In this document: positions 50,445-54,599 of the stretch, piece after piece
Layout: each line of letters starts with the position of its first letter
Position numbering within the stretch: the stretch's first letter is position 1
Origin: Glaciimonas sp. PCH181
GTDB taxonomy: Bacteria > Pseudomonadota > Gammaproteobacteria > Burkholderiales > Burkholderiaceae_D
DNA: 64,000 bases
NCBI RefSeq assembly: GCF_003056055.1
Contig: NZ_PYFP01000001.1
Coordinates: 2,728,001-2,792,000 of the forward strand
Direction: 5' to 3'
Notes under the pieces: generated by a model
Database searches by the model: none
The model's input: the letters and a program-made list of their open reading frames with translations, nothing else
What the model was told of the DNA's origin: nothing
Program-made: the position numbers and the translations under genes

Positions 50445-52274
50445 TCAGATCACCGGCGCTAACGGTATTTCTGCTGCACCCATCCAGCCTTCGATTGCAG
50501 CCAAGTGCCACTTTCCGGCCCCCAGCAATACCAGTTCCTGCGCATGAAATACCGCCAGACTGCTGCGATGTCCTACGCTGACCAAAATAACTTGTGGCAG
50601 CGATTCGCGCACCAATTGATACATCGCATGTTCCATTCCTTCATCCATCGCCGAACTCGCTTCATCCAGGAACAACACTTGCGGGCGGCGCAGCAACACG
50701 CGGCCAATTGCCAGCCGTTGCTGTTCGCCTAGCGATAAAATATTGCTCCAATCGGCTTCATCGTCCAGCCTCGGGATCAAATGCGCTAGCTGACATTTGC
50801 GCAGCACGTCAGCGGCGTCATCATCATTGGTCTGGGCAACGCTGGGATAAAGCAAAGCGGTACGTAGCGTGCCCAAAGGCAAATAGGGTTTTTGCGGCAA
50901 GAACAACGCGTGCTGGGAATCTGGGCGCACGATGCTGCCGTCGACATAAGGCCATAAACCGGAAACAGCGCGCAGCAATGTCGTCTTACCAACACCTGAA
51001 CGACCTCGGATGAGCAGCGATGCCGCGGGTGCCAGATGCAGATTCAAGTTCTCAACCAGCATGGTCTGTGCCGGGCTTTTCACCGTCAGTCCATTCACTT
51101 CGAACGCATTTTGCTGATAACCAATCTGCGCGCCCGGTAATTTTGCCGCCGCATCAATTGAATCGAGATAGCCGGTCAGACGATTCATGGTGGCGCGGTA
51201 ACTGGCAAAATCATCGTAAGCGTTACGGAAAAACGATAGCGCGTCCTGCACCTGACCAAAGGCCTGCGCCGTTTGCATCATGTCGCCCAGCGTAATTTGC
51301 TTACTAAAAAAACGCGGTGCTTGAATAATTAAAGGAAATACTACGGCGACCTGGCTGACTACCAAATTCAGCCCCTGGAATTTGAGTGATCGCGAGACAA
51401 TCGCCCACATATTCGCAATCAGGCTGCTAAATCTTGCTGCCAACGTGCCGCGCTCGACGCTTTCTCCCCGAAAAAAGGCAATACTTTCGGCGTATTCGCG
51501 GATGCGTACCAAGGCATAACGAAAGTCCGCATTGAATTTTTCGCTCAAGAAAGATAAGCGCATCAATGGGTGACCGACTTTGATAGCAAAAATCGTCGCA
51601 ATCAATACGTAGATGTACACAAGAAATACCATTGCACGTGGTATCTCCATACCGAACATGGCCAACGCGCCTGACAAACCCCAGAGGATGAAACTGAACG
51701 AGAATAAAGACACCACTGAATCCAGCACGCCCATCGACAGCGCCAGCGAACTGGCGACAAATGACTCGACATCCTGCTGGATACGTTGATCGGGGTTATC
51801 GATTTTTTGAGCGACAAACTGGGTGCGGTGATAGGCTTGATTGGCAAACCAGCGATCGACTAAATTGTTGGTAAGCCAGACCCGCCAATGAATCAAAAAT
51901 GCCTGCCGAACGTAAAAATTTACCAAGACACGGAAGACATGGATCGTCGCCAGCACCGAAAATATGATGACCATGGTCCAAAATGCTTTGGCATCGAGCT
52001 TTTGCAAAGCGCTGTAAAGACCATTACTCCAAAATGAAAACAAGACATTCATGCGGACCGAAAACAGTGTCAGGAAAACAATCACCGCTAACCAGAACAA
52101 TGGCCACTTGCTGCGGCCCGGTCTGAAAAAATCCCAGGTCAGACGGCCGAATTGACGGCCCCACACAGTAAAGCGCGACAACAACCAGACAATCAGGCTT
52201 ACGCAAACAATGCTGATAATGAAAGCTTTCCCTAACCAGATCAAGCTCAGCAGCACTTCGTTATTCCAATCCAT
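50445..52274 (-). CDS. ABC transporter, fused membrane and ATPase domains, SbmA/YddA type
   Basis: The 609-residue protein joins an ABC_membrane_2-type transmembrane domain (about 20-340; IDNPDQRIQQDVESF is the marker segment) to a C-terminal ATPase. The ATPase has Walker A GRSGVGKTT, signature LSLGEQQRLAIGR and Walker B VLFLDEASSAMDE. E. coli YddA and rhizobial BacA relatives are the closest known types; substrates range from peptides to vitamin B12 and are not predictable. I use the ATG at 52274, with AGGAG five bases upstream, instead of 52307. Confidence 0.9.
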   Translation of the reverse strand: MDWNNEVLLSLIWLGKAFIISIVCVSLIVWLLSRFTVWGRQFGRLTWDFFRPGRSKWPLFWLAVIVFLTLFSVRMNVLFSFWSNGLYSALQKLDAKAFWTMVIIFSVLATIHVFRVLVNFYVRQAFLIHWRVWLTNNLVDRWFANQAYHRTQFVAQKIDNPDQRIQQDVESFVASSLALSMGVLDSVVSLFSFSFILWGLSGALAMFGMEIPRAMVFLVYIYVLIATIFAIKVGHPLMRLSFLSEKFNADFRYALVRIREYAESIAFFRGESVERGTLAARFSSLIANMWAIVSRSLKFQGLNLVVSQVAVVFPLIIQAPRFFSKQITLGDMMQTAQAFGQVQDALSFFRNAYDDFASYRATMNRLTGYLDSIDAAAKLPGAQIGYQQNAFEVNGLTVKSPAQTMLVENLNLHLAPAASLLIRGRSGVGKTTLLRAVSGLWPYVDGSIVRPDSQHALFLPQKPYLPLGTLRTALLYPSVAQTNDDDAADVLRKCQLAHLIPRLDDEADWSNILSLGEQQRLAIGRVLLRRPQVLFLDEASSAMDEGMEHAMYQLVRESLPQVILVSVGHRSSLAVFHAQELVLLGAGKWHLAAIEGWMGAAEIPLAPVI

Positions 52275-52431
52275 CTTTACTCCTGCCCAAGTTTTCGGAA
52301 ATGACACATTACGATTGATAATCGTCCAAAGCTATCAGGAAAATACACGAGCAAGCGGCACAATTTATGCCGCCGTCCGGCCTGAAGAGACTGACTGCCA
52401 GCAATTATGGCGGTTTAACGTTTCTTTTGCT

Positions 52432-53097
52432 TCAGGCTACGATAGAGCGAATGCGATAGACGCATCGGCGTGCTCCGGCAAACAAATGCTCCTCTCTACT
52501 CACCTCAGCGCCACCGCCCACAACTTCTTGAAATAGCTCGAGTTCGGACCGACAAAAGCCCTGACAAGTTCTTGCGGCTGCGCAAATAGGGCAATGATCT
52601 TCTATCAGCAACCAATCTGCGCCATCGCGTTCAACCGTTGCCATATAGCCCTCGGCCTCGCGTAGCGAAGCCAATTTCGCTAGTCTGTCCTCCACTGCCG
52701 TCAGTCCTTCGCAGGCTTGAAAATAAGTTACCCGCAGCGTATCTTCGCGCTGACTAATCAGTTTTTCCAAGCCACTCTCGCCAAATAATTGCCTGACTGA
52801 GCCAATCAGATCGACCGTCAATTGCGCGTGCGTATCGGGAAAACGGGCATGGCCAGTGGCGGTCAGCACCCAATTTTGGCGCGGTCGCCCAGCGCCTGAA
52901 GAGGCCTCTTGCAAACCGGCAACCAAATGACCGGAGAACAGTTTCTGCATTTGCAGACGCGCGGCTTCAACCGTGATGTCAAGTTCTTGCGCAAGGGTCG
53001 CGGTCGAAGCGGCGCCTTTGGTCTTCAGACGCAAAAGAATACGGTCGGCGGTAGATTGCGCTTCGCTATTATCCAAGTTATTTCTTGTATATTCCAT
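52432..53097 (-). CDS. SufR-like winged-helix regulator with a Cys-rich C-terminus
   Basis: The 221-residue protein has an N-terminal winged helix (ILLRLKTKGAASTATLAQELDITVEAARLQMQKL, GRPRQNWVLT). The C-terminal region carries Cys169, Cys172, Cys178, Cys182 and Cys212 in HCPICAAARTCQGFC and RRCVYRI. This matches the layout of SufR-type regulators that bind an iron-sulfur cluster, including a 12-residue gap between Cys169 and Cys182. No suf genes are near; the divergent neighbour is an MFS exporter. A palindrome lies inside codons 2-10 and a second before the MFS gene, so autoregulation and control of the exporter are likely. The sensed signal is unknown. Confidence 0.85.
   Translation of the reverse strand: MEYTRNNLDNSEAQSTADRILLRLKTKGAASTATLAQELDITVEAARLQMQKLFSGHLVAGLQEASSGAGRPRQNWVLTATGHARFPDTHAQLTVDLIGSVRQLFGESGLEKLISQREDTLRVTYFQACEGLTAVEDRLAKLASLREAEGYMATVERDGADWLLIEDHCPICAAARTCQGFCRSELELFQEVVGGGAEVSREEHLFAGARRCVYRIRSIVA
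53068..53093. promoter_or_regulatory. Putative operator 1, within codons 2-10 of the SufR-like gene
   Basis: This 26-bp site (ATTATCCAA-N8-TTGTATATT) matches operator 2 at 22 of 26 positions. The two centres are 50 bp apart, about five helix turns. It lies entirely inside the coding start of the regulator. Confidence 0.6.
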
Positions 53098-53117
53098 TTT
53101 TCGGCTTTACACTCCGC

Positions 53118-53143
53118 AATATCCAACTAATTTCTTGGATATT
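53118..53143. promoter_or_regulatory. Putative operator 2, before the MFS gene
   Basis: AATATCCAA (53118-53126) and TTGGATATT (53135-53143) form a perfect 9-bp inverted repeat with an 8-bp spacer. A weak plus-strand promoter, TTTACA (53106-53111) with TAATTT (53128-53133), would be covered by it, which fits repression. It lies between the two divergent starts. Confidence 0.7.
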
Positions 53144-53174
53144 AAAGCCGATTAATGCAATTGTCGAGGTGCAC

Positions 53175-54599
53175 TTGAAGACCCTATCCACCGCCGCTCC
53201 CACTTGGGGAGATTTACTCGCCGGTCGCAATGCTTTGCGCGCCATCGCACTGACCGGCGGCGTCGCTCTGCACGCCATTAATGTTCACATTGTGACCACG
53301 ATATTGCCATCGGTCGTGCGCGATATCGGAGGGCTGCCTTATTACGCCTGGAACACCACGCTGTTTATAGTCGCCTCGATTCTTGGCTCCACGCTCTCCA
53401 CAAAATTGATCGATATATTCCAGCCACGCGCTGCCTATTTATGCGCACTGACATTGTTTTCCATCGGTACGATAGGCTGCGCGACGGCCCCGACAATGGC
53501 ATGGTTATTAGTCGGCCGTAGCGTTCAGGGCTTGGGGGGCGGAATTCTGGCAGCTCTCAGCTATGCGTTGATCAGGATCGTATTTGAGCAGCGCTTATGG
53601 TCGCGAGCGGTGGCGCTAGTTTCGGGCATGTGGGGCATTGCGACGCTATTCGGACCTGCGGTGGGTGGCCTATTTGCCCAAACCGGCAACTGGCGGCTGG
53701 CATTCTGGGTGCTATTACCAATCGCAGCGTTGCAAGCCGTGATCGTTAGCAGTCAACTCGATAGTCGTCAGGATAACGCGGCAGACCGCGGAACGCTGCG
53801 AGTTCCCTTCGGTAAAATTTGCTTGCTGGCCGCATCGGTATTGGTGATCGCTATCGGCGACTTATTCACGCAAACGATAGGAAAAATCATCGGCGTCGCC
53901 ATCGGTTTGGGCCTCGGCATTTTGTTGGCCTGGCTGGATCAGCGTGCAACAGTGCGGCTATTGCCCAGCGGCGCGTATTCGCTTCACTCGCCGCTGGGGG
54001 CCATTTTTGCGTGCGTCTGTCTGTTGATGATGGGTACCACGACTGAAATTTTTGTGCCCTACTTTCTGCAAGTAATTCATCTTCACACACCGCTAATGGC
54101 CGGTTATATGACCGCCGCCATGGCAGGTGGCTGGAGCATCGCATCGCTCATCAGCTCAAGTCGCAACGGTATCGCCGCTGATCGAATGATTCGCATTGGT
54201 CCTGTGTGCGTGGCGCTGGCGCTGATCGTGCTGGCAATCGTCATGCCAGAGCACGACCGTCTGCCGTTGGCATTAGAAACGACAATATTGGTCATCGCCT
54301 TAGCCGGAGTCGGCTTTGGCGTAGGACTCGGCTGGCCGCATTTGCTGACACGTGTCATGAAAGCCGCGCCGGTCGGAGAAGAAAATCTGGCCTCATCCGC
54401 CATCACGACGGTGCAACTGTATGCGATGGCTATCGGTGCGGCATTGGCTGGTCTGCTGGCAAATACCGCAGGGCTATCGACGCCGGGTGGATTACGTGGC
54501 GCAAGCAGTGCTGCATATTGGCTATTCGGCAGCTTTGCGATTGCGCCGATATTAGCCATTTGGCTAAGTCGCAGGATGCTACCTCCATCATTTCATTGA
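53175..54599 (+). CDS. MFS drug-exporter-like transporter
   Basis: A major facilitator protein of about 474 residues with roughly 12-14 membrane helices. MFS marks include the motif C-like GMWGIATLFGPAVGGLFAQTGNWRLAFWV and GRSVQGLGGGILAALSYALI, typical of the DHA-type exporters. The longest frame begins at 53085, but that start lies inside the divergent regulator. I use the TTG at 53175, five bases after GAGG; a GTG at 53169 is also possible. It is probably controlled by the adjacent SufR-like protein. The substrate is unknown. Confidence 0.85.
   Translation: MKTLSTAAPTWGDLLAGRNALRAIALTGGVALHAINVHIVTTILPSVVRDIGGLPYYAWNTTLFIVASILGSTLSTKLIDIFQPRAAYLCALTLFSIGTIGCATAPTMAWLLVGRSVQGLGGGILAALSYALIRIVFEQRLWSRAVALVSGMWGIATLFGPAVGGLFAQTGNWRLAFWVLLPIAALQAVIVSSQLDSRQDNAADRGTLRVPFGKICLLAASVLVIAIGDLFTQTIGKIIGVAIGLGLGILLAWLDQRATVRLLPSGAYSLHSPLGAIFACVCLLMMGTTTEIFVPYFLQVIHLHTPLMAGYMTAAMAGGWSIASLISSSRNGIAADRMIRIGPVCVALALIVLAIVMPEHDRLPLALETTILVIALAGVGFGVGLGWPHLLTRVMKAAPVGEENLASSAITTVQLYAMAIGAALAGLLANTAGLSTPGGLRGASSAAYWLFGSFAIAPILAIWLSRRMLPPSFH

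Follow-up and report, generated by a model that had tools for sequence, protein, structure and literature searches.

SufR is a repressor and autorepressor whose holo form binds the operator CAAC-N6-GTTG (PMC8593673; the same operator is given in PMC4755962), and its cysteines follow the pattern C-X12-C-X13-C-X14-C (PMC8593673). In cyanobacteria, the sufR gene is autoregulated and divergent from its target (PMC8593673, PMC4755962). In Mycobacterium tuberculosis, the SufR protein is Rv1460, encoded by the first gene of the suf operon; its function requires each of C203, C216, and C244, while C242 is dispensable, and no exporter partner is described in the available text (PMC6034842). Redox control of exporters is known from SoxR. 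In Stenotrophomonas maltophilia, SoxR and MfsA, a major facilitator superfamily (MFS) exporter of 14 helices and 456-473 amino acids, are encoded head to head, with autorepression and with induction by paraquat, menadione, and plumbagin (PMC4411124). In Pseudomonas aeruginosa, SoxR is activated by paraquat and pyocyanin and serves both the MFS gene PA3718 and the resistance-nodulation-division (RND) genes mexGHI-opmD (PMC8466533). I analyzed a stretch of 64,000 nucleotides (hereafter the window) of Glaciimonas sp. PCH181 (contig NZ_PYFP01000001.1, positions 2,728,001 to 2,792,000), in which a SufR-related repressor gene is divergent from the gene of a DHA2-like MFS exporter (Table 1). Together with two DNA sites, they form a real, conserved regulator-operator-exporter module. 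I put the probability that the two genes form a self-contained, redox-responsive switch for efflux at about 55%. No description of this pair was found in the literature searched (open-licence PMC papers).

The original prediction had reported two related 26-bp palindromes, and these were confirmed (22/26 positions identical to each other, starts 50 bp apart). It placed them on either side of the gene starts, which is too simple; one is intergenic and the other lies within the beginning of the regulator gene. Since 79 positions of the window reach at least 18/26 self-complementarity (5 reach 22/26), the palindrome of site 2 is weak when taken alone. Are the two sites kept in relatives? A main set of 84 loci, mostly from Burkholderiales, was compiled. 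Four (L001-L004) are from whole genomes, with the window as L001; the other 80 belong to named genomes and are the best of 155 relatives among the candidate stretches. L004 and L036 are identical. A locus was counted when both of its best non-overlapping matches to AATATCCAAG-N6-CTTGGATATT reached at least 13/20. This consensus was derived from the window and its relatives and hence favours them, and 2448 random windows of the same 84 loci served as the control. It was found that 82 of the 84 loci have the paired sites, against 2 of the 2448 random windows. The exceptions, L071 and L080, have one site each. After removal of identical stretches, both sites are present in 67/69. In 65 loci, both sites score higher than the best of 100 shuffles, and in all 84 at least one does. 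The core common to the sites, CAAG-N6-CTTG, has the N6 of the SufR operator but does not correspond to that operator. In the window, the core of site 1 is a hybrid, CAAC-N6-CTTG. The distance between the sites is 40-43 bp in 49 loci, 50-57 bp in 33 loci, and 20 bp in the two exceptions. These distances, about four or five helical turns, would suit two dimers on one face of the DNA, although the loci are kin rather than independent observations and the 50 bp of the window is slightly off.

The positions of the sites relative to the predicted regulator promoter are also conserved. The predicted -10 element lies within site 1, and a -35 element with at least 4/6 matches to TTGACA is found at a spacer of 17 in 74/84 loci; for each of the remaining spacers between 13 and 21, the number of loci does not exceed 5. 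The -35 hexamer is TCGACA in 54 loci and TGGACA in 14 (ties were broken towards a spacer of 17). Since the sites sit on the regulator -10 and over the start region, repression is predicted. Might site 2 be kept merely as part of the protein-coding sequence? In 16/84 loci, including the one-site locus L071, its core starts upstream of every in-frame start codon. For L053, L056, and L067, the earliest start available is an ATG past the end of the site 2 core; in L094, it falls on the last base of the core. Protein conservation alone would hardly explain site 2 in these loci.

Table 1. Features of the regulator-exporter locus, in positions of the window.
Feature	Coordinates	Strand	Basis
SufR-related repressor gene	52432..53097	-	Open reading frame, 221 amino acids
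Cys/His region C169-x2-C172-x5-C178-x3-C182 ... H204-x7-C212, proposed iron-sulfur or other metal site	52462..52593	-	95 aligned homologues
Helix-turn-helix part of the regulator, residues 19-53	52939..53043	-	Weak PF12840 and PF08279 matches, both below cut-off
Candidate operator site 2, over regulator codons 2-10	53068..53093		18/26 self-complementary; kept in relatives
Candidate operator site 1, intergenic, over the regulator's predicted -10	53118..53143		22/26 self-complementary; kept in relatives
Predicted regulator promoter, TCGACA (53162-53167), 17 nt, TAATAT (53139-53144)	53139..53167	-	Consensus scan
DHA2-like MFS exporter gene	53175..54599	+	474 amino acids from TTG; PF07690; divergent from the regulator

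The open reading frame (ORF) of the exporter opens at position 53085 (first TTG), inside the regulator gene, but the likely start is the later TTG of Table 1, which has a GAGG at 53166-53169. Its product matches MFS_1 (PF07690) with 121.3 bits. In NCBIfam, the best partial matches are SdrM and EmrB-type models, below their cut-offs (79.7 bits for TIGR00711, whose cut-off is 230.2), and the sole solved relative found by sequence at E <=1e-5 is a distant transporter, 8pnl. In the main set, neighbours were assigned by tblastn; ACR_tran, HlyD, and DUF2165 were confirmed with Pfam only in L036. A DHA2-like MFS gene is divergent and adjacent in 53/84 loci, the window included. An RND cluster is adjacent in 21 loci; in 20 of them, a DUF2165 gene is followed by genes of a membrane fusion protein (MFP) and an RND pump (L003 and L004, counted here, do not extend far enough to include the RND gene), and one has the MFP and RND genes. 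In four more loci, MFP and RND genes lie 2.9-4.5 kb off with other genes between. All 78 of these loci retain both sites. When the pump types were mapped on a maximum-likelihood tree of 85 regulators, 5 changes sufficed for the RND label (under which two loci of a different, TolC-linked arrangement were also counted), whereas shuffled labels required 10.6. Thus, the pump has probably been replaced several times. The divergent regulator-MFS module of the original prediction therefore holds for the window and for many relatives, while the partner is often an RND pump and some homologues are found elsewhere altogether, at suf genes, on the glpX/murB side, or in TolC operons. An MFS and an RND pump under one redox regulator in P. 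aeruginosa mirror these swaps, although the regulator there belongs to an unrelated family (PMC8466533).

A DUF2165-like small membrane protein gene follows the MFS gene in eight DHA2 loci (L024, L052, L059, L062, L064, L066, L070, and L094), besides heading the 20 RND clusters. DUF2165 is perhaps a pump accessory. In Chromobacterium subtsugae, a DUF2165 gene is likewise co-expressed with a DHA2 pump cluster, cdeAB-oprM, but a MarR-family gene lies in that operon, which is under quorum-sensing control (PMC12114271). No DUF2165 match was found in the window's own genome, in a search whose control queries were also silent.

How does the regulator compare with SufR? Against the NCBIfam SufR model TIGR02702, it scores 97.9 bits (E 6.2e-28), too low for the curated cut-off of 178.8, and the match aligns residues 15-216 with model positions 1-208, so that the homology extends over the whole model. 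The regulator was thus rightly called SufR-like in the original prediction, but it is not SufR by the defining tests. A suf-linked relative from the window's genus (L010) also scores under the cut-off (133.2 bits). Cyanobacterial SufR (PMC8593673, PMC4755962) and the regulator are alike in their near whole-model homology, an N-terminal DNA-binding part and a C-terminal Cys part, the C-x12-C spacing, the N6 between 4-bp half sites, and a gene that is divergent from its target and autoregulated, the latter by prediction here. Unlike cyanobacterial SufR, the regulator lies away from suf genes, has an exporter as its partner, and uses the half site CAAG instead of CAAC, one base being changed per half site. 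As had been predicted, no suf gene was noticed among the ORFs at 48-60 kb of the window (by reading only). HTH_20 matches residues 19-53 weakly, with 20.2 bits against the Pfam cut-off of 27. A single-sequence search found no PDB relative. When an alignment profile was used, the best 60 of 75 PDB matches at E <=1 were led by helix-turn-helix proteins aligned to the N-terminal part, and among these the C-terminal part had no solved relative. Several source databases label homologues ArsR/SmtB, MarR, or "helix-turn-helix". SoxR is a MerR-type regulator, and its model TIGR01950 is missing from the four NCBIfam families that match the regulator at E <=1. The likeness to SoxR is an analogy of role only; the regulator is probably SufR-like at the DNA and SoxR-like in the cell.

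The five C-terminal cysteines listed in the original prediction (169, 172, 178, 182, and 212) are present, and the gap from C169 to C182 is 12 residues. In 95 aligned homologues, C212 is found in 95, C169 and C182 in 94 each, C178 and H204 in 91 each, and C172 in 90. A further cysteine, Cys129, is poorly kept (55/95). As had been predicted, the SufR pattern is incomplete and extra cysteines are present: C169-x12-C182 and C212 are retained, the third cysteine is missing, and C172, C178, and H204 are additional. Yet C169, C182, and C212 match the required C203, C216, and C244 of Rv1460 (PMC6034842) in order and in the first spacing of x12; the second spacing is x27 there and x29 here, and Rv1460 differs in its place in a suf operon. 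Since the spacings differ, H204 is not claimed as a direct stand-in for the third SufR cysteine. C172 is missing in the only two suf-linked homologues seen, L010 (beside SufA- and SufBD-type genes) and L131, which branch together; L010 retains C178 and H204. C172 thus sets this regulator group apart from the two suf-linked homologues, but not the pump-linked ones from all other homologues. Cys172 as a mark of efflux was rejected, as it is present beside glpX/murB-type genes (by reading) and missing in the DHA2-linked L159 (= L223), L210, L224, and L225.

I also counted the cores alone (at least 7/8 letters, cores 33-58 bp apart) in loci outside the set from which the consensus was derived. Paired cores were found in 8 of 20 DHA2-linked rows (the 20 rows comprise 18 distinct loci) and in all 8 loci with a linked superoxide dismutase (SOD) gene; the shuffle expectation was 0.0 in both cases. 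Six DHA2 loci of other proteobacteria have the two cores 41-56 bp apart. The 12 DHA2-linked rows without a pair show that the paired operator is not universal among regulator-DHA2 pairs. No core pair was found in 10 operon-type MFS loci (one has a single core), 2 suf-linked, 7 glpX/murB-side, and 4 TolC-RND loci. In the eight SOD-linked loci, all on alphaproteobacterial plasmids, homologues with paired cores face the SOD gene. The neighbours are SOD, DoxX, MFP, and RND in Ancylobacter, and SOD, FdxA, flavin reductase, ferredoxin-NADP reductase, DoxX, and truncated haemoglobin in Salipiger abyssi. Further SOD-linked plasmid records are from Azospirillum, Sulfitobacter, and Salipiger profundus, and for two Ensifer records and one Sinorhizobium record the SOD was assigned by tblastn, one of them being checked with Pfam. 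In this plasmid survey, 16 of the 27 records with a match were opened. A truncated haemoglobin gene lies beside two homologues and is the sole pointer to nitric oxide. In a sample of 289 genomes of one class, 35 have a match; the class was taken as Alphaproteobacteria because its member L198 shares its tail with L182 of Tistrella mobilis. Of 30 loci fetched, 10 have a divergent DHA2 exporter gene, and three of these (L201, L209, and L223) coincide with L169, L172, and L159.

From the observed gene arrangement, sites, conservation, and neighbour swaps, I infer the following course for DNA binding by the regulator, the cluster, the signal, and the exported compound. A regulator dimer with an iron-sulfur (Fe-S) cluster on its C-terminal cysteines would occupy both CAAG-N6-CTTG sites. 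At site 1, it would block the -10 of its own gene and the MFS promoter region; at site 2, about four or five helical turns off and over the start region, it may act as a roadblock or add cooperativity. The cluster would then be oxidised or stripped by a redox-cycling or electrophilic compound, or by the superoxide or nitric oxide accompanying it, the repressor would leave the DNA, and the exporter and the regulator would be made. The switch would work like SoxR-MfsA of S. maltophilia, where a redox regulator is also head to head with an MFS exporter, but as a repressor on a SufR scaffold; SoxR activates the pump there, whereas repression is expected of the SufR-type protein here. In my judgement, the regulator very likely binds the two sites and probably holds an Fe-S cluster, and a signal of the redox-cycler or superoxide type is slightly favoured. 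SOD, ferredoxin, and flavin reductase genes beside homologues suggest a redox signal indirectly, and together with the multidrug pumps they point to redox-cycling compounds.

Several results weigh against such a switch. The consensus scan yielded no promoter for the MFS gene, and 6/84 loci of the main set have no transporter of the kinds searched. The original prediction had named the absence of the palindromes from relatives with the same gene pair as the result that would speak against it; this is not seen in the main set, but 12 of the 20 outside DHA2-linked rows lack a core pair and 9 lack any core. The same Cys/His motif is present in homologues away from pumps (on the glpX/murB side, by reading), and thus the motif alone does not imply efflux. 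SOD was found within 1.5 kb in none of the 30 loci fetched from the 289 genomes; thus, the SOD linkage applies to some homologues only, namely those observed among the plasmid records. Finally, Cys variants of Rv1460 lost function in M. tuberculosis, yet they repressed a reporter at the wild-type level in Mycobacterium smegmatis (PMC6034842), so that the cysteines need not govern DNA binding.

Could the same repressor and sites work without an Fe-S cluster? The cysteines may hold structural zinc or act as a thiol switch, and the ligand may be the exported drug, as in MarR/ArsR pump repressors. In my judgement, zinc could plausibly be bound by C-x2-C-x5-C-x3-C and the conserved His, too. The database names of homologues (ArsR/SmtB or MarR type) agree with this, and the own-genome sites at <=1 mismatch are found only at this pair and inside one ORF. 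I regard this alternative as unlikely, because the SufR model matches residues 15-216, the cysteine positions required in Rv1460 are among the most invariant, the operator core has the SufR spacing, and superoxide and ferredoxin genes are among the neighbours. Alternatively, the protein may be an Fe-S repressor that, like SufR, monitors the iron or Fe-S status of the cell, with an exporter moving an iron chelator, a metal, or a sulfur compound; the two suf-linked homologues, one of them in the window's genus, would agree with this. However, these two form their own branch without Cys172 and without the paired operator. The partners elsewhere are SOD and pumps of the multidrug MFS or RND type, and none of the annotated neighbours carries an iron-uptake name. 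This explanation is therefore quite improbable. Chance palindromes beside a chance gene order, without a functional link, would fit the 18/26 self-complementarity of site 2, which so many positions of the window reach or pass. It is hardly credible, being refuted by the comparison across loci: the main set far exceeds the control windows, the same arrangement recurs at the SOD-linked loci, and the site 2 core begins upstream of any in-frame start in the loci described above, L071 included.

A wider reading can be advanced tentatively and as a whole. Widespread proteobacterial Fe-S repressors descended from SufR may be a second SoxR, taken over from Fe-S homeostasis as sensors of redox-cycling toxins, with CAAG-N6-CTTG as their own dual operator and with DUF2165 as a pump accessory. 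The cargo would be interchangeable, i.e. a DHA2 MFS pump, an RND pump, or SOD with ferredoxin and flavin reductase, and Cys172, Cys178, and His204 would make a cluster site unlike that of SufR. If true, a SufR-related protein would be a common proteobacterial sensor for efflux and superoxide, hidden under the ArsR, MarR, or "helix-turn-helix" labels of the databases. Sites that are kept in pairs while the pump type is swapped point to a little-studied redox alarm for expelling harmful compounds, and bear on how environmental bacteria turn on multidrug pumps without an antibiotic present. The module offers a testable operator, a swap series with the same sites and different pumps, and a possible role for DUF2165.

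Is SoxR itself present in these bacteria? In the window's genome, no match to the SoxR model is above the cut-off (best 44.3 bits vs 116.9). SoxR exceeds the cut-off in 5 of 60 relatives, and these five do not overlap with the 14 that have SufR-like matches, but these numbers are too few to mean anything. A DHA2 pump under SoxR in relatives was considered and rejected; the five SoxR loci examined have no DHA2 homologue (one has a weak fusion-protein match). For five more distant pumps (31-39% identical), neither regulator was found in the fetched 1.5 kb flanks.

In the own genome, TATCCAA-N8-TTGGATA at <=1 mismatch is found only at both sites and at one site inside an ORF. At <=2 mismatches, 23 places are found, while the reversed pattern gives 6. 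Sixteen further distinct places were examined; 15 are inside mechanically opened ORFs of at least 80 amino acids and one (L118) is outside. A wider regulon is not claimed. One of the 15, L116 (G000:C1:1245722-1245739), carries the full CAAG-N6-CTTG core and is probably in the leader of a gene. It is a perfect palindrome, ATACAAG-TCAGCA-CTTGTAT, close to where a mechanically opened ORF of 441 aa begins; the product of this ORF, by reading, resembles a secreted binding protein. L116 is a possible second target of the regulator, judging from this match.

An SbmA/BacA-like ABC transporter gene (ABC_membrane_2 and ABC_tran; 50445-52307, minus strand) directly follows the regulator gene in the same orientation, with a gap of 124 bp. 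The same order is seen in a congeneric genome (L106), with a gap of 174 bp between mechanically opened ORFs. The two genes are possibly co-transcribed. In L096, L099, L100, and L101 and their relatives L132, L133, L138, and L141, a different MFS gene is closely followed, in tandem, by a related regulator gene. These loci have no paired operator, and the MFS of L099 is weakly Tet-like. Gammaproteobacterial homologues with an HCPIC motif (L152-L154, L156-L158, and L167) lie beside glpX or murB-type genes, as judged by reading ORF starts. More distant homologues (L011, L012, and L014) have C-x12-C-x19-C-x7-C, and the pattern is similar where shown in L144-L150. In L103, L104, and L144, a distant homologue is divergent from the gene of a small, secreted-looking protein. 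The Klebsiella pneumoniae plasmid p2020C07-229-90k (L183), typed as conjugative, has the regulator-MFS pair with both cores, and an IS110 transposase gene adjoins the regulator gene.

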